Assembly (NCBI GenBank): GCA_039583875.1
Contig: CM077162.1
Span: 115,536,589-115,600,588, forward strand
Length of the DNA stretch: 64,000 nt
Source: Platanthera guangdongensis
Taxonomy: Eukaryota > Streptophyta > Magnoliopsida > Asparagales > Orchidaceae
Reading direction: 5' to 3'
Shown: one piece after another, positions 47,201 to 64,000 of the stretch
Position numbering within the stretch: the first letter of the stretch is position 1
Layout of the letters: the number at the start of each line of letters is the position of its first letter
Notes under the pieces: model-generated
Told to the model about the DNA's origin: nothing
The model's input: only the letters and a program-made list of their open reading frames with translations
Databases searched by the model: none
Position numbers and translations under genes: made by a program

Positions 47201-47850
47201 GCGTGTAACCCTCTCACTCGAGAACCAACCACCTACTCGACTACCTTAAGCACCAACTCGAGTATCTTAAGTCACGCCCCTGGGTCACGCCCGTGACCCA
47301 GGTCGTGTAACCCACTTTAGTCGAGTACTTTGAAAACTACACGACTAACCTCGGCGGCTACTCGAGTACCTTCAGTCACGCCCCTGGGTCACGCCCGTGA
47401 CCCAGGGCGTGTAACCCACTTTACTCGAGTACTTTGAAAACTACTCGAGTAACCTCGGCAGTTACTCGAGTACCTTTAGTCACGCCTCTGGATCACGCCC
47501 GTGACCCAGGGCGTGTAACCCACTTTACTTGAGTACTTTGAAAACTACTCGAGTAACCTCGACAACTACTCGAGTACCTTCAGTCACGCCCCTGGGTCAC
47601 GCCCGCGACCCAGGGTGTGTAACCCATTTTACTCGAGTACTTTGACAACTACTCGAGTAACCTTGGCAGCTACTCGAGTACCTTTAGTCACGCCCCTGGG
47701 TCACTCCCGTGACCCAGGGCGTGTAACCTGCTCGGGACTGACCGCTCCAGTCCACAAGTGCCGCCCTTTTTCCTCCACTTTCCTGAACTCAAGCCTGCCC
47801 TCCTGACTCAAAACTCACACGGGGGGCCTAGCGCGAATCGGGACGTTACA
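44277..47850 (-). repeat. Solo LTR of the G1 family, minus strand
   Basis: Complete LTR of 3574 bases: minus strand starts TGTAACGTCCCG at 47850 and ends CTTACA at 44277. Flanks are CACAA (44272-44276) and TACAA (47851-47855), a target duplication with one difference. No internal region is attached, so it is a solo LTR, usually made by recombination between two LTRs. It contains the 104-base tandem repeats and a probable TATA box around 46953-46966. Confidence 0.88.
47271..47730. repeat. 104-base tandem repeat in the solo LTR
   Basis: Repeat starts (GTCACGCC) at 47271, 47375, 47479, 47583 and 47687, exactly 104 bases apart. Each unit has the palindrome CTGGGTCACG-CC-CGTGACCCAG and two or more ACTCGAGT palindromes. 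More divergent copies extend to about 47040. Confidence 0.95.
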
Positions 47851-50800
47851 TACAAATTCCCTGAAAATAGCTCTTCCGGGTCTGACACGCCCGTGTCGGC
47901 CCGGACACGCCCGTGTCGCCAGGCGTGTCGTTTGCTCGACGATCGTCGAGCTCATTTCGTCGACCATAGGGGATCACGCCCACCCGACATGCCCGTGTCG
48001 GACGATACACGTCATGTCACAAGGCGTGTCCTCAGCTCGACGATCGTCGAGTTCATTTCATAGAATAGGGGGAACACGCCCCAGATACGCCAGTGTCACC
48101 AGGCGTGTCATCAGCCCGACGATCATCGAGCTCATTTCATCGAGCTCAGCTCATATCATCGAGTTCATTTCGTAGAACAGGGGGAACATGCCCCCGACAT
48201 GCCCGTGTCGCCAGGCGTGTCGTCAGCCCGACGATCGGCGAGCACATTTCGTCGAGCCGAGCTCATATCGTCGATCTCAACTCATTTTGTCGAACAGAAG
48301 GGAACACGCCCACCCGACACGCCCGTGTCGGATGATACACGCTCGTGTCACAGCCGTATCACCATGCGTGACACGACGGTTCTGGGCAGAATCGCCGTGA
48401 GTAGGAGAGAGAAAGCTCCATTTTTCCACCAATTTGGAGGAGAGAGGAAGTGTCCATTCATGGCCATTAAGGTGATACACCTCTCAGTATCCCTCCATTA
48501 TGCTCCCATTCATCTTCCCTGATGAATTAAAGGGGATTCAAGCAGTTTCCAGAGATATTTAATGAAAGGGGGATGCATAGGGTCGGCCATGGGAGGGGAG
48601 GTGAAGAGGTCAACCACGACCAAGAGAATTAAAGCCCCCACACCACCCAACTGACCCCTCCATCATCTTTAGAGCCCTCTGAGGAGTAGAATTTCCCATT
48701 TTCCCGAACACTTAGAGTTCTCGGAGGAGGAAAAGCCATGGCACCAAAAGCTTTGAGGAGGAGCAATGGCGGCCGGCGACTGGTGCAAGGAAACGCTCCA
48801 AATGAGGTCCAATCCTTCTCCTATCTATGTGTGCTAGATCTAGTCTGGTTTAGGATGAGAAGTCGGGCTCAAATGAGCCGGATCAGAGAGAAAATTTCTT
48901 TGAAATTCCATGAAAAATGGTGGTGAGAGTTCGCCGGAAACCGCCGCCTCCGGCGGCATGGTCGCCGCCTCCGGCGGCATGGTCGCCGCCAAACGCTAGC
49001 CACCACCAAAAACAGAGGTGGTGGTGGTGGTGGCCGGCCAGGGTGGTGGTCGGGGTGGCCGGAAATTTGGCTGGAAGAGGCTCCATGTCGGGCCAATCTT
49101 GGCCCTTGGCTGGAGGTTGAGGATGAACGGATGTCATCCGTTTTGATCAAGGCGATTCAAATGATATTAAGGTTATTGATTTTTCAGGAGATTATTAGCT
49201 GTAGATATTTTTAATTGTTAAAAAAACTTAGATTTCTTTACTGTAAAAGTGGTCAACATCTAAAATGTAGCCCTTGATGTCTAGTGTAATTTAAAATTTA
49301 TTTCACTCAATTTCGTTCCTGGTTAGACCACAACACTCATTTTGGTGAGGTCTATCCATAGTGTTGTCTAGAGATTAATTTAAGTGCCCACTTCAAACCA
49401 GACATCCAAATAATCTGCAATTTGGGGGAGGGGCTATTCTTAAATATATGTAGGACATATCCAAAAAATCGGAATTTTTGGAAAATATTTTCCTATAGTT
49501 TTTAGAAATATTTAATTAACTAATTATAAATTAATTAGATGTCATAAACACCTAAAAATCTCCCCAGATTTGGGTGGGTGGTCTTAGAGGACATGTTAGG
49601 GCTCTGGTAAAAATTTCATCTCCTTTAGAGATGTTTTGATTAGGTTTTATCCAACCCTAATTTGACCCTTATAGGGTTAATTAGGTCAAAACACCCCCTT
49701 TGGGTTTGAGTGGTCAAATCACCTCAACAGAGGCTGATATTTTGTCCACTGATTCTCTATGGTATGACACACCCTCCAATGGAATTTCGGGTGGTTAAGA
49801 TTAGTGTAGCCCTAGAACCCTAGGGTAGGTCCCTTAATGGGGATTTTTAGGGTTTTAAGGTCATGGGGCCAAATGACCTTGGAATGACCTTGAAATTGGA
49901 GGAGAGGTCCATAGGGTTGGTATAGTCCTCTGGTTAAAATTTTAGGGAATTTGGAAGTCTTAAACCCCCACAAAACCCAAACCCTAGTTTAGGGCACCAA
50001 AACTAATTTGGAGTATTAGGCTATCAAATCACTTTAAAATCACTTGAAATTTGAGATGAGTGGTGTTTAAAGTTTGTAAAAGCTCTGGAGATTTTTGTTA
50101 TGAATTTAGGATTATTATTTTGGATACTTCATTAACAATTTAGTAATTTGTAATATTTGCTTAGAAATTTTTTATGAAGGAACTACTTGCTGAAAATTGA
50201 TGAACTTTAGCCAGGGGACTCCTTATTATGTTTTAAAGCTCTGCGAATATTTATGGGATTTTTGGAAGACTATTTCTAAGGGTTGCTTCATTAAGTGTTG
50301 TTTCCCATGAAAATTTAATTTAATTTATTTTGGAGTCTAATAAGCCTCTAAAATTATGATTTTTGTACAATGATCTTTTCTTAATATGGTTCAGAAAAGA
50401 TCATTGTACAAGATTCTGTAATTTTTATATAATTTTTTGATAAGTAATTTTGGTACTTCCTTCTTTACATATGATTAAGGGAATTATATTGGAAAAATTA
50501 ATTAGAGGTCACATATTTTCTGAAAAATTATGGAAATTAATATATTGTCACATATCTCTGTTATTTAGTGTTCACAATTTTTGGGTGGACATTACTTGAG
50601 TAGATCATATAGTTCATGTTCAAAATTGCCCATGGCCAAACATTTGGGAAAATTCAATAAATATCAAATTAATTAGAAAAATTATGATTCTCTGATTTTA
50701 TACTAAACTTGTTATAATATACCTCTGGTAAATTTTATAGGAGATTTGGAAGAAAATCTGGAGTACCTCCTTTATACATCTCATATTGTATAGGGTGGTC

Positions 50801-51461: not shown

Positions 51462-52679
51462 TGTCACAACCCGCATTTCCTCAACGAGCAAATCGTATCA
51501 GAGCATGAGGAACTACGGGTTATGATGCCACGTCGTGCAGGGGATAACTGCACACGCTCAGGCAACTCTTGACGCTTACTTTGCAAGTTGAAATTCAACA
51601 GTTACATGCACGGAAACGTTGGGATGAAATGGCCGTATCCCTCGGCCTTAGATATCAAAACACATATGCACGCGGCGAAAATCCTTTATTTATTTTTGAC
51701 GATCTCATATATGCAGGCTATAGTGATACTACGATTAGAAAGTCTCTTTGTTTACGTTATTTGAAAAATACGTTTTAGTTAATCAAAACATGTATGCATG
51801 ATATACAATAGTAGGTTTTGTTAACTTCAAAATATCTAATGCAACCTACTAGAAAAACCATCCCAAAAGCAAGTACATATCATTCCATCCAAGTGAGTTA
51901 CATTAGCAGTCTAGTTCATATTTACATAAAAGAAAACCCACCAAATGGGCGCCAACAAGCTGACACGAACCCATTGGGGCACATGTATGTCTGTACAACA
52001 AAAAGAAGAACTACCTCGCTATGTAAGCTCGGCTAGCTCCCAGGAAACGCCACCAACCAACCTAGCCGCTCAACCGGCTACAACCTGCACCTGAGGCATT
52101 CAAGAAAGAATACCTCAGCAATCAACCAAGCTATACAAAAGAGAGCATGAATTTCATAATCGATAAAGAAGGGGCTTACCGACCCCGTAGCAATGTTTAA
52201 GTCAAAAGAGTGCATAAAACAAGTGCATACAATGTCATTCCAAAGGGTCAACCGCACCAAGTGCGTACAAGTTCATCAAGTCCTGCTCAAACCGTAGGAG
52301 CAAAAGGCAAAACACATGTCCATTCCATCATTCAAAGGACAAGAAACTACGATACTAGTGAAGCATAAGCAGCGGTTAAGTTCAATTTCGCAAGGGTCTT
52401 ATCGGTGGCGGCCCTAAAGTGGAACGCACCAAACAAAACCAGCCCAAATCTGGGCTAAAGTGGTCTCTCTAACCACAAAAACAAAACTCGGTGGCCACAG
52501 GCTGAAACCACACCACCCTTGCAAAATTCTCACACAAACGCTCCTGCCATGGTTCACAAATTCGTCTCGCAAAACGCCCCATATCCCAAGGTAACACGTT
52601 TCCTTTCATCGTCCTCACACATGACGACCAATTGCCAACGTAGCGTTTGACGAACTTCATCACATAAAAAGGGTCACAT
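51462..52679 (-). repeat. Left arm of the G4 inverted repeat
   Basis: Reverse complement of 53941-55159, with almost no net length difference over 1.2 kb and scattered substitutions only. It starts with TGTCACAACCCGC, the inverse of the LTR end at 55159. It is the 3' part of the LTR in inverted orientation. Confidence 0.93.
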
Positions 52680-53940: not shown

Positions 53941-55159
53941 ATGTGACCCTTTTTATGTGATGAAGTTCGTCAAATGCTACGTTGGCAATTGGTCGTCATG
54001 TGTGAGGACGATGAAAGGAAACGTGTCACCTTGGGATATGGGGCGTTTTGCGAGACGAATTTGTGAACCATGGCAGGAGCGTTTGTGTGAGAATTTTGCA
54101 AGGGGTGGTGTGGTTTCAGCCTGTGGCCACCGAGTTTTGTTTTTGTGGTTAGAGAGACCACTTTAGCCCCGATTTGGGCTGGTTTTGTTTGGTACGTTCC
54201 ACTTTAGGGCCGCCACCGATAAGACCCTTGCGAAATTGAACTTAACCGCTGCTTATGCTTCACTAGTATCGTATTTTCTTGTCCTTTGAATGATGGAATG
54301 GACATGTGTTTTGCCTTTTGCTCCTACGGTTTGAGCAGGACTTGATGAACTTGTACGCACTTGGTGCGGTTGACCCTTTGGAATGACATTGTACGCACTT
54401 GTTTTATGCACTCTTTTGACTTAAACATTGCTACGGGGTCGGTAAGCCGCTTCTTTATCGATTATGAAATTCATGCTCTCTTTTGTATAGCTTGGTTGAT
54501 TGCTGAGGTATTCTTTCTTGAATGCCTCAGGTGCAGGTTGTAGCCGGTTGAGCGGCTAGGTTGGTTGGTGGCGTTTCCTGGGAGCTAGCCGAGCTTACAT
54601 AGCGAGGTAGTTCTTCTTTTTGTTGTACAGACATACATGTGCCCCAATGGGTTCGTGTCAGCTTGTTGGCGCCAATTTGGTGGGTTTTCTTTTATGTAAA
54701 TATGAACTAGACTGCTAATGTAACTCACTTGGATGGAATGATATGTACTTGCTTTTGGGATGGTTTTTCTAGTAGGTTGCATTAGATATTTTGAAGTTAA
54801 CAAAACCTACTATTGTATATCATGCATACATGTTTTGATTAACTAAAACGTATTTTTCAAATAACGTAAACAAAGAGACTTTCTGATCGTAGTATCACTA
54901 TAGCCTGCATATAGGAGATCGTCAGAAATAAATAAAGGATTTCCGTCGCGTGCATATGTGTTTTGATATCGAAGGCCGAGGGATACGGCCATTTAATCCA
55001 AACGTTTGCGTGCATGTAACTGTTGAATTTCAACTTGTAAAGTAAGCGTTAAGAGTTGCCTGAGCGTGTGTAGTTATCCCCTGCACGACGTGGCATCATA
55101 ACCCGTAGTTCCTCTTGCTCTGATACGATTTGCTCGTTGAGGAAATGCGGGTTGTGACA
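53941..55159 (+). repeat. Right arm of the inverted repeat, 3' part of the G4 5' LTR
   Basis: Ends GGGTTGTGACA at 55159, three bases before TGGTATCAGAGCC. Blocks at 54060-54200 and 54490-54690 match the G5 LTR (61570-61640 and 61910-62110), which defines this as LTR sequence. Confidence 0.9.
55117..55126 (+). promoter_or_regulatory. U5 segment complementary to the primer site (G4)
   Basis: GCTCTGATAC is the exact reverse complement of GTATCAGAGC at 55164-55173, so U5 and primer site could pair around a 37-base loop. The same is found in G5. Confidence 0.7.
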
Positions 55160-55161
55160 GT

Positions 55162-55174
55162 TGGTATCAGAGCC
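55162..55174 (+). other. Primer binding site, tRNA-Met type (G4)
   Basis: TGGTATCAGAGCC just after the LTR end. Confidence 0.95.
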
Positions 55175-55318
55175 AGGTTTGCTTGACATTTGGTCGGGCA
55201 AACTTTCCCTTTGATTTTGTGTTTGTACGCATCATCTCATACACACACTGAGGTGCCATCAGTATGTCTTCGCCGAAGCACGTACACTACACTCATGGCA
55301 TGAACAGAAGTATACGGG

Positions 55319-55491
55319 GCATATTATGTAGTATGGGATGCATAATATGCGGTTGTATATGGATCCACCATAGGGGCAACATGTGAGGGTTATATAGTAT
55401 GGGATGCATAACCTCACCACATGGATGCGACTAGCACGTTTTCTTTTATTCGTTGCATGCAATGCTATGTAGTATGAGATGCATAGCATTG
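55319..55491 (+). other. Three-hairpin leader array with constant loop (G4)
   Basis: Hairpins at 55319-55350, 55383-55417 and 55460-55491. The stems are GCATATTATG, GTGAGGGTTAT (one bulged G) and CAATGCTATG, each paired with its own complement, while the 12-base loop TAGTATGGGATG is the same in the first two and TAGTATGAGATG in the third. It lies in the untranslated leader between primer site and gag. Confidence 0.85.
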
Positions 55492-55832
55492 TGATGCGTA
55501 CGACCGCTCATGGCATGCATTAAGGCTGTTTTTTTTAGATTGCATAGCACATCACGCATAACATAACATTGCATGAGCACAACGTGCCAAGCTAAGACGT
55601 ACCTGCTGACACCTGTACACACATGGTTTTGGGTCAAAGAAAGTCATGCATTCATGGTTTAGGCACAAGTTAGTGGGATGACAGTGAGTCATCTTTAGGC
55701 TAGGCATACCATCATTCTCAAACTCCCAAAGCAAGGTAGCAGTTGATGTTCATATTTCTTTATGTATGGTCTGTACCTAGTCGTTGTGTGTTTTGTTGGG
55801 TTTGATCTTGATAAGAGTGAACGTGTTATAGG

Positions 55833-57098
55833 ATGTTGAAGCGTCCAGTGACAAGGCAAACTCCCCAATCCGAGGGCGAGTCTTCGGGCGCGCAGAATAA
55901 TGCGCTGATGGATAGTCTTCGCCAAAGTAATGAGGCTTTGACGAGGCAGGTGCAGGAGGTACAGTCCCAGCTCCAAGCTATGGCATCCGCGATGTCTGGG
56001 CTGGCACCAAGAGGACAAGAGACGGTTAGAGGCCTCACTAGTTCGACTCCTTCAGTGGCAGTGACACCCCCGGTTGTGGTTCCTCCTGCGATGACTTTCA
56101 TCTCACAGTTTCAGCGACTTGGACCACCGACGTATGATGGAAAAGCAGACTTCGTGATCTTGGATGATTGGGTGATTACGTTGGAAGAAATGTTTGTGTA
56201 TGCTGGTGTGACCGAGGACCAGAAGGTGATGCTTGCTGCCTATCAACTTAAAGGGTTGGCGAAAGGTTGGTGGTTACGAGAAAAGGAAAGCCTAGGGGCG
56301 GGCTGTTCGTGGGAAGCGTTCAAAGAACTGGTACGGCGCAAGTTTCTACCGGCAGTGGAAAGGGACCGCCTGATGAATGACTTCTTGTACTTGAAGCAGA
56401 GGAAACTCACAGTTAGTGAGTATGAAATTGAGTTTAGCAAGTTAAGTCGGTTCGCTCCGAGCTTGGTGACTACGGAAGCTGATCGAGTCAAGAGATTTTT
56501 GGGCGGACTCCGCAGCGACGTGCAGCAGTTCGCAAGTGCTTATGGAGCGACAAGTTACACTTCGGTGGTGGAGGCGGCGTTGAAGGTAGAAGCTATTGAA
56601 AATGCCAAACAAAGAGGGCAGCAGATGAGGCAGGGCAAGAGACAGCTGGTGGGAGAGAAACTGTCCCACGAGTCAGACGTAAAGAAGAAGAAGGAACTAT
56701 GTAGCTTCTGTGGCCGAGCCGGTCACCCGTTTGAGAAATGTTTCAAGCGGTTGGGGCTGCAAAAGAAGGAGCAGGTGCACGCCATTCAAGGTGCGCCAAC
56801 CAGAGACTTGGAGTGTACATTTTGTGGGAGAAGAGGTCATGATGTGGGCCGCTGCTGGGCCAAAGACAAGGTATGCTTCCAGTGTGGCAGACCAGGACAT
56901 CTTCGCGCAAGGTGCCCACAGGTTCAAACTGTGTTGCAACCCGCACCACTCCAGGCTTTGCCTCCGCCTCCGCGCTTGGACAAAGGCAAAGGGAAGTTGA
57001 ATGTGGTCTCTTCAGCGGAAGCGCAGATGTCACCGCAGGTTATCTCAGGTTCGATTCAGTCCTCTGTTTCTCGTTTTGTGTATGCCTCTTATGTGTAG
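55833..57098 (+). CDS. Gag polyprotein (G4)
   Basis: A 421-codon frame without lesions. Residues 1-50 are a Gln/Glu-rich, probably helical start (LRQSNEALTRQVQEVQSQLQ). About 88-240 are the gag core: FISQFQRLGPPTYDG, the DDWVITLEEMF block, LKGLAKGWWLREKESL and FLYLKQRKLTVSEYEIEFSKL. The C-terminus carries three CCHC-type zinc knuckles: CSFCGRAGHPFEKC, CTFCGRRGHDVGRC and CFQCGRPGHLRARC (about residues 290-366). Gag builds the particle and binds genomic RNA, perhaps through the leader hairpins (inference). The frame ends at TAG 57096-57098, but the last 16 codons do not look like gag and fall inside an intron-like segment. ATG is preceded by TTATAG, as in G5. Confidence 0.93.
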   Translation: MLKRPVTRQTPQSEGESSGAQNNALMDSLRQSNEALTRQVQEVQSQLQAMASAMSGLAPRGQETVRGLTSSTPSVAVTPPVVVPPAMTFISQFQRLGPPTYDGKADFVILDDWVITLEEMFVYAGVTEDQKVMLAAYQLKGLAKGWWLREKESLGAGCSWEAFKELVRRKFLPAVERDRLMNDFLYLKQRKLTVSEYEIEFSKLSRFAPSLVTTEADRVKRFLGGLRSDVQQFASAYGATSYTSVVEAALKVEAIENAKQRGQQMRQGKRQLVGEKLSHESDVKKKKELCSFCGRAGHPFEKCFKRLGLQKKEQVHAIQGAPTRDLECTFCGRRGHDVGRCWAKDKVCFQCGRPGHLRARCPQVQTVLQPAPLQALPPPPRLDKGKGKLNVVSSAEAQMSPQVISGSIQSSVSRFVYASYV

Positions 57099-57126: not shown

Positions 57127-57600
57127 GAAACTTTAAGGTCAAGAACCGTTGGGCGCGTGTTCTCTTTGATTCTGGCGCGACCCATTCATTTATGGCTCGA
57201 ACCTTTCTGGATCGATATCATCTAACACCAGAGCGAGTGGGGAATGCGTTTTTGGTGAAATTTCCTTCTGGCGCTTCTGTGGTGGCTGACTGGGGTCTTC
57301 TTGATTGTCCCATTTTGTTGGGGGATTTCATAGCAAGAGTTGATTGCAAGGTGATCGATTTGGACGATTTTGACGTCATTCTGGGCATGGACTGGTTAGC
57401 CCATTATGATGCCGTCATCCAGTGCAGAGGAAAGTGCTTGGATTTTATTAAGGATGATGGTCAGCCAGGAAGTGTGTATGGTGATTCTTGTCAGGATTCT
57501 CCAGGGATTTCGGCGGTATGTGTTCGGACGTTGTTTGTTTCCGACTGTTTTGCTTGTTTTGACTCCGTTGTGGGGACTAGTGCTGTTTTGCCGCGTTTAG
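57127..57600 (+). CDS. Aspartic protease (G4)
   Basis: Same frame as gag. The active site [11 protein letters not shown] has its Asp at 57168-57170; downstream [19 protein letters not shown] is the typical Ty3/gypsy block. D-S-G-A is intact. The first usable ATG after the stops is 57192, inside the active-site region, so an independent start there would lose the catalytic Asp; expression therefore needs splicing or stop bypass. It matures the Gag-Pol precursor. Confidence 0.9.
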
Positions 57601-59063
57601 AGGAGATTCCTGTTGTGCGTGAATTTCCAGATGTTTTTCCTACTGACCTTCCTGGTCTACCCTCTAATCGTGATGTCGAGTTTGTTATTGATTTGGAGTC
57701 GGGTACGCGACCGATTGCGAAAGTGCCGTACAGGATGGCCCCGCGTGAGTTAGCAGAGTTGCGTACACAGTTGGATGATTTGTTGGCAAAAGGGTTTATC
57801 CGGCCGAGTTCATCACCTTGGGGTGCACCAGTGTTATTTGTGAAGAAGAAAGATTGGTCGATGCGCCTTTGCATCGATTACCGGGAATTGAACAAGGTGA
57901 CGATTAAAAACAAGTACCCACTGCCAAGAATCGATGATTTGTTTGATCAACTGCGTGGCAGTTCCATATTTTCGAAGATTGATCTCCGCTCGGGCTATCA
58001 TCAGCTCAAGGTCCGGGAGTCTGATATTCCGCGGACTGCATTTCGATCACGACATGGTCATTTTGAATTCCTTATGATGTCGTTTGGTTTGACCAACGCA
58101 CCATCAGCCTTCATGGATATGATGAACAGGGTGTTCAAGGACTACTTGGATAAATTTGTGGTGGTTTTTATTGATGACGTTCTTGTCTACTCCCGCAGTG
58201 CTGAGGAGCATGAACAGCATCTGCGATTAGTATTGGCCACTTTGCGAGATCAACGGTTATTCGCCAAGCTAAGCAAATGCGAGTTTTGGTTGCCGCAAGT
58301 TGCTTTTCTGGGTCATGTCATTAATCACCATGGTATTTCAGTGGATCCCGAAAAGATTTCTGCAGTTATGGAATGGAGAAGACCGGAAACACCCAAGGAG
58401 ATTCGAAGCTTCTTGGGCTTGGCCGGCTATTATCGCAGATTTGTCGAAGGTTTTGCGACGTTGGCCGCACCTTTGACTCGATTAACCCAGAATAATGTGG
58501 CGTTTGAGTGGAATGACAAGTGTGAGGTCTCATTCCTAGAACTCAAGAACAGGTTATGTACCGCTCCTGTGTTAATCTTGCCAACAGAAGGAAAGGATTA
58601 TGAAGTGTTCGTGGATGCGTCGCACGTTGGACTTGGATGTGTGTTAATGCAAGACAAAAAGGTGATTGCGTATGGGTCTCGGCAGTTGAAACTTCATGAA
58701 AAGAATTACCCAACGCATGATTTGGAGTTTGCAGCGGTGATATTTGCATTGAAGTTGTGGAGACACTTGCTATATGGTGCACAGTGTAAAATCTTTACAG
58801 ATCATAAAAGCTTGAAGTATTTCTTCACGCAGAAGGAACTTAATTTGCGCCAACGGCGATGGCTTGAGTATGTAGCTGATTATGATGTGGACATTCAGTA
58901 TCATCCAGGGAAAGCGAATGTTGTAGCCGATGCTTTGAGTCGGAAGACGGGGAAATTATTTCATCTTTCCGTCGAACGTCTTGTAGAGGAATTTCTATTG
59001 ATGGATATTGCGGTGGGCAAATATGACCCGCAAAGTCATTCGGCAATAGAAGAACCGTCATGA
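57601..59063 (+). CDS. Reverse transcriptase and RNase H (G4)
   Basis: Continuous with protease. RT blocks: [70 protein letters not shown] and [13 protein letters not shown]; catalytic FIDD with Asp codons at 58173-58178. Then [18 protein letters not shown] and [14 protein letters not shown]. RNase [17 protein letters not shown] (Asp at 58614-58616), the [13 protein letters not shown] helix, [12 protein letters not shown] and [15 protein letters not shown]. All catalytic residues I can place are present and no stop occurs until TGA at 59061-59063, in the linker after RNase H. It copies RNA into DNA and removes the RNA strand. Confidence 0.94.
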
Positions 59064-59513
59064 TTGGTGCTTGCAAGACAACATCAAAAAGATGGTCCTG
59101 ATCTTTTACATTTATTTCTTCGGACTGAAAAGGATGAATTACCAGATTTTGTGATTGATGGTGCAGGCACGTTAATGTATCGTGGGCGATTTTGTATTCC
59201 CGCGGTTGGGGATATTCGCGAGATGGTGTGTAAGGAAGCACATGGCGCAAGTATGGCCTACCATCCAGGCTCAACAAACATGTACCGTGATTTGAAACAA
59301 ATTGTCTGGTGGTATGGAATGAAAAGAGATATAGCGCAATTTGTATCGGAATGTCATACCTGCAAGCGGGTGAAAGCTGATCATGGGAAGCCTGGTGGCA
59401 AGTTGACACCATTGGAGATTCCAACCTAGAAGTGGGAAAGCATCTCAATGGATTTTATTACCGGTTTACCAAGATCTCCACGAGGACATGACTCCGTGTG
59501 GGTGATCGTGGAT
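59064..59513 (+). pseudogene. Integrase N-terminal part, truncated by G5 (G4)
   Basis: Same frame, directly after the TGA. It contains the HHCC zinc domain (HGASMAYHPGSTNMYRDLK with later CHTCKRVK). A TAG at 59427-59429 replaces a Trp codon expected in PTW-KWE. After it the core start SMDFITGLP is readable to VWVIVD, where G5 begins. Only the first catalytic Asp is present; the rest lies beyond G5, outside the window. Confidence 0.92.
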
Positions 59514-59992
59514 TGTAACGCCCCCGGTTTTTCTGTGTTTTGTTTGATTTTGGATTGGCGTTACGATGACGCATTTCCGGCCCTTCGCCGTTGTAGAGTG
59601 CGGTCCTAGCTCTGTAGGTTCCTTGTGTAGCCTGGTTGTAGCCAGTTGGCAAGTTTCCCCAGCTAGCCGGAGTCTGTTTTGGTGACTCGGTTGGGCCTCT
59701 TAGGGAAATGCTTGTGTTTTGGCTTCGGGAGGTGTTAGCCCGAGTGTTCGATTGTCGGATGTTGTTTTCGACCTCGCTGTTGTTTTCGTGGCTTGGTTGT
59801 TTAGCTACGGTGCGAGTTTTGGTCGAAATCCGAGATCGTTTGCCTTCGCGTCGTTTCGGCATTGTTTTGTTAACTGCATGTTTGTAATGTTTGCTGTGCT
59901 GTGCGTGGTCTGTTGTGGCTGAGCTTGTAGGCTGGTGCCTTGTCTCTTGTTTGCTAGGTGTTAGCAGGTTTCTTTTCTGTGTAAGTTTGGGT

Positions 59993-60535
59993 GACACGGC
60001 CTGGGTCACGCCCGTGACCCAGGGCGTGTCGTGCTCGGGCAGAGCTCCCGTTTCTCCGGTCGACGAATTTTTGGTCGACGGGGTTTTTTGTAGGAACACG
60101 GCCGTGACACGGGCGTGTCACGGGCGTGTCCCCCTTAGGTTCGTCGAGCTGCGCTCGATGGTTGTCAGGCGGTGTTTAGTGAGAACACGGCCCTGTCACG
60201 GGCGTGTCGTGTCAAACACGGGCGTGACATTGGGGCGTGTCTCTCTGTTCGACGATCGACGCTCCACGATCGTCGGGCGGTGTTCGAGTTGGTACACGGC
60301 CTGTGACACGGGCGTGTCCCTTGCTTCGTCTAGCGGAGATCGACTTTTGTCGAGTGTGCTGGTGCGTGAGTACACGCCCCGTGACACGGGCGTGTCGAGC
60401 CGTGTCACGGGCGTGTCTGGGGGGCGTGTCCCGTGTTTTCGTCGAGTGGAGATCGACGTTCGTCGAGTGTGTGAGTACACGCCCCGTGACACGGGCGTGT
60501 CGGGCCGTGTCACGGGCGTGTCTTGGGCGTGTTCC
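59993..60535. repeat. CACGGGCGTG and CGTCGAG palindrome block in the G5 LTR
   Basis: Repeated GACACGGGCGTGTC and its variants (GTCACGCCCGTGACC), alternating with TCGACGATCGACG-type modules. Same themes as 53098-53560, 47884-48380 and 47271-47730. Confidence 0.88.
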
Positions 60536-62605
60536 GTACTTTTTTTCCTGAAATCATCTTTTGTTGCCGTGGACTGCTTTTCCTCCTCATTTTCATCGTT
60601 CCCGAGTCTGGAGAGTATCCAGCGGAAGGGTTTTGAGAGGAGGCGGTGGTTGTTTTGGCCGGCGATTTCGGGAGGGTTAGAGCCCGTTCTTCTCGTGTGA
60701 TAGCGAATTCGGCTTGCTCTCGGCTAGATCTTCCCTTCCATGTAAGTTTTTTTCTTGATTTAAGGTTCGATTCCAGGAATTTCTAAATATCTGATTTCTT
60801 TCTTCCCTCAAGTTTCAGCTTTGGTCTTATAGGTGGCCGATCTTGCCGCCGGAGCCAAGCCGTGGTGCGGCTGTTGTTTGTTTTTCCGAAGAGGTAGAGG
60901 CAAGTGGCCCCTTGCCCTTGCCAATTTTATTTCTAACCCTTGATCTTTTTAATTTCTTCTGCAAAGCTCTGTTCTCTTTGTCCTTTTTCCTCCCTAGGGC
61001 AGCAGGTTGAGTTATTACATCAAGCTTTTAATCAAGTGCTGATTCTTCATTTCTTTTTCTGGAATTTTAATCAATGTTCTTTTTTTTTCGGAGGTTTAGT
61101 GTCCAGTGGGTAGCTAGAGTTCGGGTGAGGTTGTTGTTAGTTGCAGTTTAGGGTTAGTTGCGGTAGCTCCGAGTAGTTAGGACGGAACGGTGGGTTGGGA
61201 TTAAATCTCCAACTCTCTGTTTTCGCGCATGAGAGGACTTAAGCTGCGATTTTAGCAAGACTTACGTTTACCCTAAGTGGAAAGCGCAGACAGCGTCGAG
61301 TGAGCCGAGCTCACTCCACGCCGTCGCTCAGCGTAGGTCTTGCGGCTAAGTATTTTTAGGCGTCAGGTGAGTGGAGTTTACTCAACGCTGCGTCGAGTGG
61401 GCTCGACATTTCTGTCCTGAGTTCATGTGTACCTTAGGATTGTTAGTGTGACTTTTCCCTTCCTTTAGGGGGTGGTATTGGGTGTTCGGCAAATTTTTGC
61501 TTGCCGACTCTTGTGTTGTGGCAGGTGGTGGAGTTTTAGTGGCCTCTCGAGGGGTGGATTTTGATGTGGAGAGCTGTGGCCACCGTCTATTTGCCCCGGT
61601 TTGGGTTGGTGTGTGGGACCCTAAAGCTGCCACTGGCGACCCCTTAGCCCATTTTGTTGGATCTGATTTTGGTTATGTATTCAGATCCATGTTTTTGACC
61701 ACTGCCACTTACCCACGTATTAGGAATGTGAGACTCTTTCGTTGAGCTTGTTGCTTTTATTGCTCGCACTTGGTGTGCTTTGCTGTGCTTTAGACAGTGC
61801 TCTTTTCTTACTGTCATGCTCTTTCTTTTGCCTATAGCAGCTTGTTGTCGGGTTGGTAAACCCTTCTTTTTGCTCTTAACTCTCATGCTTTATTTACACT
61901 TTTGATTATTTCCTTGCTGAGGTGTTCTTTTCTTGAATGCCTCAGGTCCAGATTGTAGCCGGTTCAGCGGCTAGTTCTTTTGGAGGGGCTGGTTTGTGGC
62001 CTCTTGGGTAGCGGAGACAGCTGATCCCGATTCTGTGAGGTAGTTCTTTACTTTTCTGTATAGACATACATACTCACCAGTGGGTTCGTGTCAGGTTGTT
62101 GGCGCCCACTGGTGGCTTCTTGCGATGCTGGGTATGAACTTAAACTGCTGTTTTTGCCTATTAGTGGTTGTTTACTTGCTTCTGGGAAGGATTTTTGCTA
62201 GGTTGCATGTTAGATATTTTAAACCCTAAAAGCATTATTATATGTATATCATGCATAGCATAATTATAAAACAAAGTCACTATATTTCCTTAGCGTAAAA
62301 AGACTACTTTTTATATCTATTATATTCACTTTAGAGTCGTGCTTACCATGAGTTGTCCCTCGGGGACACTCATGCTCACTAGGGTGTCAACTTAATTGAA
62401 CCAAACTATTTTCTGCTGCGTATACTTATACTTTTAATTGTGGACTAGCTGATCCACCGTGTCGAGGGATACGGCCAATCAACATCACTGCTTTTCTTTC
62501 ATAATTAATCAACGATTTTCCTTAAATTCTAAGGTCTGGAGTTTTGCCTGAGCGCGTGCAGTTATCCCCTGCACGGCGTGGCATCACGGCACGTGTTTTC
62601 TCTTG

Positions 62606-62614
62606 CTCTGATAC
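62606..62614 (+). promoter_or_regulatory. U5 segment complementary to the primer site (G5)
   Basis: CTCTGATAC is the reverse complement of GTATCAGAG at 62652-62660, the same arrangement as in G4. Confidence 0.7.
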
Positions 62615-62649
62615 GATTTTATCGTTGAGAAAATGCGGGTTGTGACAGT

Positions 62650-62660
62650 TGGTATCAGAG
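62650..62660 (+). other. Primer binding site, tRNA-Met type (G5)
   Basis: TGGTATCAGAG two bases after the LTR end. Confidence 0.95.
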
Positions 62661-62805
62661 GGAGGTTGCTTGACAAATGGTCGGGCAACCTTTCCCCTTG
62701 TTTGCATTAGTGGTTAGCGTCATACCATACACACACCGATATGTCATCAGCACGTCTTGGCTAAAGCACGAACACTACACTCATGAGCATAAAGAAGTAT
62801 ACGGG

Positions 62806-62984
62806 GCATATTATGTAGTATGGGATGCATAATATGTGTTTGTATATGGATCCACCATAGGAGGCAACATGTGAGGGTTATGTAGTATGGGATGCATAAC
62901 CTCACCACATGAATGCGGCTAGCACGTTTTCTTTTTTCGTTGCATGGGAATGTTATGTAGTATGGGATGCATAACATTTTCATG
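62806..62984 (+). other. Three-hairpin leader array with constant loop (G5)
   Basis: Hairpins at 62806-62837, 62871-62905 and 62943-62984 with the loop TAGTATGGGATG in all three. The third stem is 15 pairs (CATGGGAATGTTATG with CATAACATTTTCATG, two G-U pairs). It matches the G4 array in order and spacing, but stem 3 differs at both strands. Confidence 0.87.
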
Positions 62985-63336
62985 TGTACGCCGCCCATGG
63001 CATGCATTAAGGCCTTTTTTTTAGAATGCATAGCACATCATGCATAGCATAACATTTCATAAGCACAACGTGTTAAGCTAAAGATTTGCAAGATGACATA
63101 TGTACACACATGGTTTTGAGTCAAAAAGAATACAAATACATGCATTCATGGTTTAGGCACATGAGTTAGAATGATGGTGGTGAACCATCTTAGGTTAAGC
63201 ATAACATCATCATGATAAAACAACTCCCAGAGCAAGTTTTGCGGTTGAAGTTCATATTTAAGTGTGTTTGTCTGTACCGGGTAGTTTTGTTCTAGCTGTT
63301 GGGCTAAGTTTCGTCTAAAGCTTGTGCGATTATAGG

Positions 63337-64000
63337 ATGGCGAGACGTCCTGCAACGAGGTCGACCCCCCAATCCGAGGGTGAGACGTCAGGAGCGCAGA
63401 GCGAGGCGTTGGTAGAAAACCTGCGGCAGAGTAATGAGACCTTATCGAGGCAGGTGGTGGCTATGCAGGCTCAGATTCAGTCCCTTGTGGCAGTGGTGGC
63501 GGGACAGGCCCCGCGAGTTCCGGACCCCGTTGAGGGGGTAGCTGTTCCTGCCCCTCCTGCTCCTCCCGTGCCTTTGGTTTTTGTGCCCCCGGAGATGGCG
63601 TTTATATCCCAGTTTCAGCGACTGAGACACCCTACTTATGATGGGCAAGCAGATTTCATGATTTTGGATGACTGGCTGATTACTATTGAGGAGATGTTCT
63701 CTTATTCGGGGATTTCGGATGATCAGAGAGTGATGCTCGCTGCCTACCAGCTCAAGGGCTTAGCAAAGAATTGGTGGTTGAGGGAGAAAGAGAGCTTGGT
63801 GGCAGGATGCTCTTGGGAGTTATTTAAGGGGATGCTGTTGAGTAAGTTTTTGCCTTTAGTCGAGAGGGACCGGCTGATGAATGACTTTCTCCATTTGAAG
63901 CAGAGGAAACTCACGGTCAGTGAGTATGAGATTGAGTTTAGTAAATTGAGTCGGTTTGCTCCTGGTCTGGTGAGTGTTGAAGCAGACCGAGTTAAGCGAT
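63337..64000 (+). CDS. Gag polyprotein, 5' part, runs off the window (G5)
   Basis: Starts MARRPATRSTPQSEGE and stays open for 221 codons to the edge. A helical Gln-rich start is followed by a Pro/Ala-rich spacer (VPAPPAPPVPL, about residues 68-80) longer than in G4. The gag core follows: FISQFQRLRHPTYDG, DDWLITIEEMF, AAYQLKGLAKNWW and LHLKQRKLTVSEYEIEFSKL. Strong similarity to the G4 gag supports the start, which is again preceded by TTATAG. The zinc-knuckle end is beyond the window. Confidence 0.93.
   Translation, partial: MARRPATRSTPQSEGETSGAQSEALVENLRQSNETLSRQVVAMQAQIQSLVAVVAGQAPRVPDPVEGVAVPAPPAPPVPLVFVPPEMAFISQFQRLRHPTYDGQADFMILDDWLITIEEMFSYSGISDDQRVMLAAYQLKGLAKNWWLREKESLVAGCSWELFKGMLLSKFLPLVERDRLMNDFLHLKQRKLTVSEYEIEFSKLSRFAPGLVSVEADRVKR

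Follow-up and report, generated by a model that had tools for sequence, protein, structure and literature searches.

A candidate leader RNA domain with a threefold repeated loop in a Ty3/gypsy lineage of Platanthera guangdongensis

The leader of a Ty3/gypsy retrotransposon (element A) in the window analysed here, the whole 64 000-nt stretch of Platanthera guangdongensis DNA at positions 115,536,589–115,600,588 of contig CM077162.1 (assembly GCA_039583875.1), holds three successive hairpins with the same loop. An array of the same kind is carried by a second element in the window (element B) and was found upstream of gag in 38 of 40 stretches sampled through the Gag protein, the two exceptions being one deletion and one truncation. 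With slightly better than even confidence, we regard the array as the centre of a cis-acting RNA domain at which Gag or nucleocapsid would dock at several sites, for the packaging, and perhaps the pairing, of genomic RNA. The anatomy described below was read from DNA, and the array would act as RNA.

In element A, an exact match to the primer binding site TGGTATCAGAG, presumably of the initiator tRNA-Met type, lies at 62650–62660, and gag starts with the ATG at 63337 and runs off the window (63337–63999; Retrotrans_gag, 3.4e-13; Ty3_capsid, 1.9e-10; all leader and gene features given here are on the + strand). Between these landmarks the 12-base sequence TAGTATGGGATG is present in three exact copies (62816–62827, 62883–62894 and 62958–62969), each of which sits in its own predicted hairpin according to both the inverted-repeat listing and folding, as the preliminary description had claimed. 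Hairpin 1 extends into an outer stem (62797–62847), hairpin 2 has an unpaired G within its stem (62868–62912) and hairpin 3 occupies 62942–62985. The same description spoke of different stems presenting one constant 12-base loop, which needs qualification. The invariant core is a 22-nt sequence, TTATGTAGTATGGGATGCATAA, composed of the loop and five closing base pairs, so that the stems do differ, only beyond those five constant pairs; moreover, the loop of the minimum-energy fold is 8 nt long (GUAUGGGA), closed by U.G and A-U. The array is part of a longer domain which, in the RNAalifold prediction for A and B, is closed by a helix, absent from the preliminary description, between 62739–62770 and 63069–63101, the 3′ strand being placed by A + B folding, duplex energies and pairing counts in 46 leaders (see below). 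A further hairpin, an inverted repeat at 62663–62691, immediately follows the primer site and is retained in element B with one extra inserted U-A pair. As a separate observation, the primer site (62651–62661) can itself pair with 63269–63278, shortly before gag; both elements retain this pairing, one double change included.

The stability of each hairpin was compared with that of 5000 shuffles in which the shared core was fixed and the 10 nt beyond it were shuffled on each side. Shuffles folding as well numbered 102, 309 and 5 out of 5000 for hairpins 1, 2 and 3 of element A, and 130, 667 and 33 out of 5000 for those of element B; hairpin 2 taken alone is therefore weak evidence. When whole leaders were folded as single sequences, none of 20 shuffles was as stable as the leader of element A (z = −3.63) and one of 20 was as stable as that of element B (z = −1.65), so that the stability of the latter is not clear. 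Folded jointly, A and B gave a consensus structure at −142.2. The 100 column shuffles averaged −104.4 (sd 6.3); none was as low, and 2 had as many double changes. Column shuffles ignore dinucleotides, and RNAalifold favours covarying pairs. A search of 62640–63340 against Rfam gave two matches, none to the hairpins and both far under the gathering score.

The leader of element B, delimited by sequence comparison and a primer-site match, runs from the primer site (55162) to gag (55162–55832). Its three hairpins were recognized by motif, fold and covariance model at 55310–55360 (loop 55329–55340), 55375–55426 (loop 55395–55406, with one closing pair broken to A.C) and 55450–55501 (loop 55470–55481, which reads TAGTATGAGATG), and the strands of its closing helix are 55251–55282 and 55583–55614. 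The gag gene that follows (55833–57098, 421 aa) matches both Gag domains and encodes three CCHC knuckles, in agreement with the three zinc knuckles ascribed earlier to this Gag; protease, reverse transcriptase and RNase H lie at 57192–59063 (RVP_2, RVT_1 and RT_RNaseH). With Retrotrans_gag and Ty3 capsid domains in both elements, these pol domains in B, and the order LTR, tRNA primer site, gag, the assignment of the array to the interval between primer site and gag of a Ty3/gypsy element holds. One relative among those listed, P0121, which is 60% identical in pol, has a chromodomain. The LTR of A apparently interrupts B downstream of the integrase start, and no element in the window is complete.

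Several features of the neighbourhood were recorded alongside. Element A appears to be nested in element B, since the integrase frame of B stops before the LTR of A (59430–62649). An inverted copy of the B LTR lies beside B (51462–52679 versus 53941–55159, 98–99% identity; 98% across 1057 nt) with no leader behind it, and at 47233–47752 a 104-nt unit is repeated in tandem about five times, listed as four overlapping 208-nt copies.

Elements A and B are well diverged. In gag, 38 of 58 fourfold sites differ and 152 of 221 Gag residues are shared, and the LTR regions can be aligned only in pieces. The leaders outside the array are 77% identical before it and 75% in the last part, against 93.6% for the array itself (62797–62985 with its spacers; 187 bases aligned, 175 of them identical). 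Pairwise comparison of six representatives (A, B, L024, L040, L020 and L035; 15 pairs) gave the same picture: identity in the array was 89–96%, while in 12 pairs 57–75% of fourfold gag sites differed and Gag was 58–72% identical; in the three pairs among L040, L020 and L035, 13–35% of fourfold sites differed and Gag was 84–92% identical. By these sequence comparisons the array is better conserved than gag. The stretch before the array fell to 55–62% identity in comparisons with L024, against 89–92% in the array. The first two hairpins, the intervening spacers and roughly 75 nt downstream are conserved at the level of sequence. Between primer site and gag the lineage has a conserved region with a predicted structure.

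To see how widely the array occurs, the genome (4.25 Gb, 274 contigs) was sampled at loci chosen by Gag protein, blind to the leader. The Gag query P0009 scored 118 places, from which 30 loci were taken, and the array was sought in the 1500 nt upstream of the match; it was present in 28 of the 30, of which 27 had three loops at ≤2 mismatches and one (L033) had two loops, its first loop carrying an indel. In L021 the array was lost through an internal deletion, and in L026 similarity to A begins only 3′ of the array (truncation). The query P0004 scored 94 places, and all 10 upstream stretches taken had three loops. The preliminary description had named absence of the array from most intact members as speaking against it; among the members sampled, nearly all have it. 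For a distant Gag (P0017), 107 places were scored and 8 upstream stretches taken; 7 of these had a primer site at ≤1 mismatch, and the array was found in none of the 8. A query with the leader of element A yielded 40 scored places out of 1375 candidates, 12 of which, the window's own included, had the top score and 100% identity; A therefore looks like a member of a young family.

A covariance model built from the six window hairpins was run on 19 sources. It matched these six, all strong matches in the window falling within the two leaders, and three hairpins each in L039 and L043; the remaining matches were five weak opposite-strand shadows and one partial match at 50773–50792 of the window (E = 0.39). 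It had no match in the distant-Gag loci (L090–L097), in L021 and L026, or in six presumed contaminant loci (L006–L011). In L039 and L043 the sequence before the array is unrelated to that of the other leaders. Protein comparison gave 16 Gag relatives, 9 of them from Platanthera zijinensis. No relative was found in viral contigs by pattern and protein scans, five pattern matches (L001–L005) being taken as chance on the basis of a rough, hand-worked expected number. Contigs of other genomes had no exact 20-mer match; by protein they had the six contaminant relatives just mentioned, and the two of these with a primer site (L008 and L009) are without the array. The latter six are retroelement pol sequences in records titled as bacteria, some of them plausibly contamination.

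Variation of the loop was counted in 204 loops from 68 triplet loci (28 sampled with the P0009 Gag, 10 with P0004, and 30 found with the leader of B, which carry the array by construction). The 12-base sequence was exact in 169 of the 204. Position 8 was changed in 30, mostly from G to A and sometimes to T, recurrently in several families; the other eleven positions had 9 changes in total, three of them from the single indel of L033. The motif is therefore better written GUAUGRGA than as a fully constant loop. In single-hairpin folds the 8-nt loop was exposed in 67, 63 and 67 of the 68 loci for hairpins 1, 2 and 3, respectively, and in these folds, as in those of A and B, it is shared by different stems. 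The spacing of the loops is nearly constant (e.g. 67,76; 66,73; 66,75; 67,74). We also noticed a site ahead of the array, CATNNCATAC (62721–62730 and 55233–55242), which is complementary to the loop except for two middle bases. Of ten loop positions, the site of A (CATACCATAC, at 62721) can pair with nine and that of B (CATCTCATAC, at 55233) with all ten. In the 46-leader alignment, judged by eye, the two middle bases of the site vary between families regardless of pairing.

Covariation was assessed in an alignment of 46 leaders (A, B, 28 P0009 loci, 6 of the 30 B-type loci and 10 P0004 loci), which were assigned by eye to six families (A to F). The scored structure, of 89 pairs, came from A and B themselves, an origin that works in its favour. 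Paired cells amounted to 94.7%, against 92.8% when the letters of the 3′ strand were shuffled and 18.9–54.9% when the structure was slid; cells changed on both sides numbered 86, against 26.8 and 11–35, and the covariation score was 0.112, against 0.085 and 0.024–0.065. Two other measures did not go beyond the shuffles: pairs with double changes (12, reached by 45 of 500 shuffles) and further pair types (59, reached by 115 of 500). Six of the double-change pairs are in the closing helix, four in hairpin 3 and two in the primer-site hairpin, where the paired cells were 92.1% and 93.4% (two parts of the closing helix), 95.3% and 94.0%. Hairpins 1 and 2 are near-invariant (98.6% of cells paired in hairpin 1 with its outer stem; 97.8% in the inner and 87.3% in the outer stem of hairpin 2) and had no double change in the 46 leaders, their few changes being half changes or breaks; they were dropped as covariation evidence. 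Between A and B, two pairs of hairpin 3 are changed on both sides and still paired, one is changed on one side and one is lost. The earlier view that pairing, rather than stem sequence, has been kept finds support in the compensatory changes of hairpin 3, and none in hairpins 1 and 2. The uncompensated breaking of stems that the preliminary description named as counter-evidence does not hold for the array overall, but it does for single pairs, namely in hairpins 1 and 2 and at one pair of hairpin 3, which most copies of family E break.

Changes were also placed on a tree built from the unpaired columns of 44 leaders (L039 and L043 were excluded). Seven branch events changed one pair into another on both sides; the closing helix accounts for four of them and hairpin 3 for the other three. 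Every helix had more breaks than double changes: the closing helix had 31 breaks, hairpin 3 had 11, the hairpin after the primer site had 9, and hairpins 1 and 2, counted together and including their outer stems, had 26. Many of these breaks may reflect the decay of dead copies. The closing-helix duplex has a predicted energy of −32.5 in A and −33.3 in B, and of −31 to −42 kcal/mol in 11 leaders. Strands from different families often pair less well (B with the A strand, −20.1), and some mixed pairs are equally good (A with the B strand, −33.5). A switch, in which the 5′ arm of hairpin 3 would pair about 90 nt downstream (−15.6 in A and −19.3 in B), was considered and dropped because the hairpin's own stem is better in 11 of 12 leaders (L040 excepted) and the alternative is weak (−3.5 to −8.3) in three leaders of family C. 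The leaders of that family (L024, L025, L030, L032, L036, L044 and L048) differ in the sequence after the primer site, which is by eye again capable of forming a hairpin (GGTTTTGC / GCAAAACC).

The position of the array, its restriction to the lineage, the covariation and an exposed purine loop favour recognition of genomic RNA by Gag. In such a mechanism the long helix 62739–62770/63069–63101 would close the domain in genomic RNA, from which the three hairpins would project, each presenting the G-rich 8-nt loop. The loops would be a candidate threefold target for a Gag or nucleocapsid of the lineage with three CCHC knuckles, and docking would select, and perhaps pair, genomic RNAs for packaging. 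Since the array patch is better preserved than gag, it is probably a tag by which Gag chooses its own RNA. Several points count against this reading: the presentation of hairpins alone would not need sequence conservation of hairpins 1 and 2, the spacers and the stretch downstream; breaks are more frequent than double changes; two covariation measures stay within the shuffles; and recombination may spread the leader (see below).

Whether the three loops answer to the three knuckles is another matter. Three CCHC knuckles were found in 7 of 13 Gags of the lineage (P0001 and P0003–P0014), the other 6 having fewer, some of them partial; 24 other relatives, mostly from plants and some without a whole Gag, have 0–2. 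The link between knuckles and array comes from a single lineage and thus amounts to one event. We regard as unlikely a stoichiometric, multivalent packaging code in which three loops are matched to three knuckles, have coevolved with them and are swapped between families as a module. A trans-mobilised family with broken gag was at one point suspected from stops in P0004-type copies; this argument was dropped because the stops, at 417, 425 and 433 in five copies, come after the apparent normal end of Gag (in L102, whose match is shorter, they are at 417 and 425).

Among the other readings, we give a low probability to a dimerisation signal. Here a palindrome, AUGCAU, that spans the 3′ border of each loop (the last three bases of the 12-base loop and the first three of the 3′ arm) would start the pairing of genomic RNAs, with three chances per molecule, and packaging might follow from dimerisation. 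The leader of A contains ATGCAT 7 times and that of B 5 times, and the motif is near-invariant at the hairpins. In yeast Ty3, a 6-nt palindromic sequence close to the 5′ end of the RNA, CUGCAG, mediates dimerisation in vitro (PMC11381356). However, AUGCAU is mostly paired inside the stem in the predicted fold, and the loop is conserved beyond what the palindrome needs. As for the kissing-loop module suggested in the preliminary description, the exposed GUAUGGGA, read by eye from the fold, is not self-complementary, AUGCAU merely straddling the loop edge, which makes a plain homotypic kissing loop unlikely.

Control of translation, with short upstream frames and the stable closing helix holding back or shunting ribosomes and so sparing full-length RNA for packaging, strikes us as quite unlikely. 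Leaders of plant pararetroviruses do join a packaging signal and a large stem with short frames (PMC5902531), and upstream ATGs are abundant here, with 33 in A (62649–63336; reached by none of 1000 dinucleotide shuffles) and 29 in B (55161–55832; reached by 10 of 1000), the shuffles having about 21. An ATGTAG start-stop (AUGUAG) is present in five of the six window hairpins; yet it is part of the stem, and B, L020 and L040 no longer have it in their second hairpin. The shunt model calls for a short frame that ends right before the closing helix, and within the interval from primer site to closing helix none does so in both A and B.

The leader of the Drosophila gypsy element carries Su(Hw) sites, and in a gypsy-type insulator a zinc-finger protein binds the array at the DNA level and blocks enhancers. 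An array of protein-binding sites at the DNA level (an insulator, an enhancer or a means of silencing escape), with the inverted repeats as dyad sites, would fit the threefold, near-identical 22-nt dyad at nearly constant spacing, the TGCATA core found 5 times in A and 4 times in B, and the near-invariant primary sequence of hairpins 1 and 2. Such an array leaves unexplained the compensatory changes in hairpin 3 and in closing-helix arms that lie about 300 nt apart, and we consider it improbable.

Similarities in leader and gag conflict in two cases: A and family E are 89–91% alike in the leader before the array and only 66–70% in Gag, and families D and E are 84–88% alike in Gag and 79% in the leader. 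As A is near family E in leader and not in gag, leaders have probably been exchanged between families. That such leader swapping by recombination, rather than selection, spread the array is nevertheless very improbable, since it would need repeated swaps of the same 190 nt: the family C representative is 55–62% identical to the five others before the array and 89–92% in it.

BARE retrotransposons belong to Ty1/copia. In the part of the source available, barley BARE resembles the present elements as a plant element with stated conserved dimerisation and packaging signals and differs in belonging to another superfamily and in that no loop array was seen there (PMC3735527). Yeast Ty3 is likewise Ty3/gypsy, with a structured 5′ end that includes the primer site and has dimerisation and packaging functions; its packaging signals are described as not precisely defined, it dimerises through a single palindrome located in gag, and the text consulted in part mentions no repeated-loop array (PMC11381356). 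Among retroviruses, portions of two papers describe GACG tetraloops of gamma- and alpharetroviruses (PMC516450) and a purine loop of MMTV (PMC8096270), involved in packaging in some retroviral leaders and in MMTV, respectively; these too are leader stem-loops with a short loop that serve packaging and perhaps dimerisation. The present case, known from sequence, differs in its three copies, its 8-nt G-rich loop, its closing helix and its plant Ty3/gypsy host element. Several stem-loops with a common loop motif in one RNA are described, in the part of the source at hand, for hepatitis B virus (RGAG) and STNV (PMC7612645), where the sites are dispersed over the genome, in contrast to the three in tandem within one leader domain here. 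The leaders of CaMV and RTBV are alike in being long and in having a large stem that bears a packaging signal, besides short frames upstream; they have, however, one signal atop the stem, preceded by a take-off frame (PMC5902531), and neither arrangement was found in the leaders here. A search of the open-licence PMC literature turned up no description of such an array of repeated loops in plant LTR elements, which agrees with the earlier statement that no described three-copy signal of this form is known in plant chromoviruses. A structured retroelement leader is known; a threefold constant loop in a closed domain appears, against that literature, to be new.

Open-licence literature says little on how genomic RNA is selected by plant Ty3/gypsy elements, which make up large parts of plant genomes. 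The conserved threefold loop and the covarying closing helix offer a concrete RNA domain for experiment, for which other Gag lineages of the same genome, without the array in the stretches sampled, provide a natural comparison. The array is also a marker for members of the lineage in which gag has diverged.
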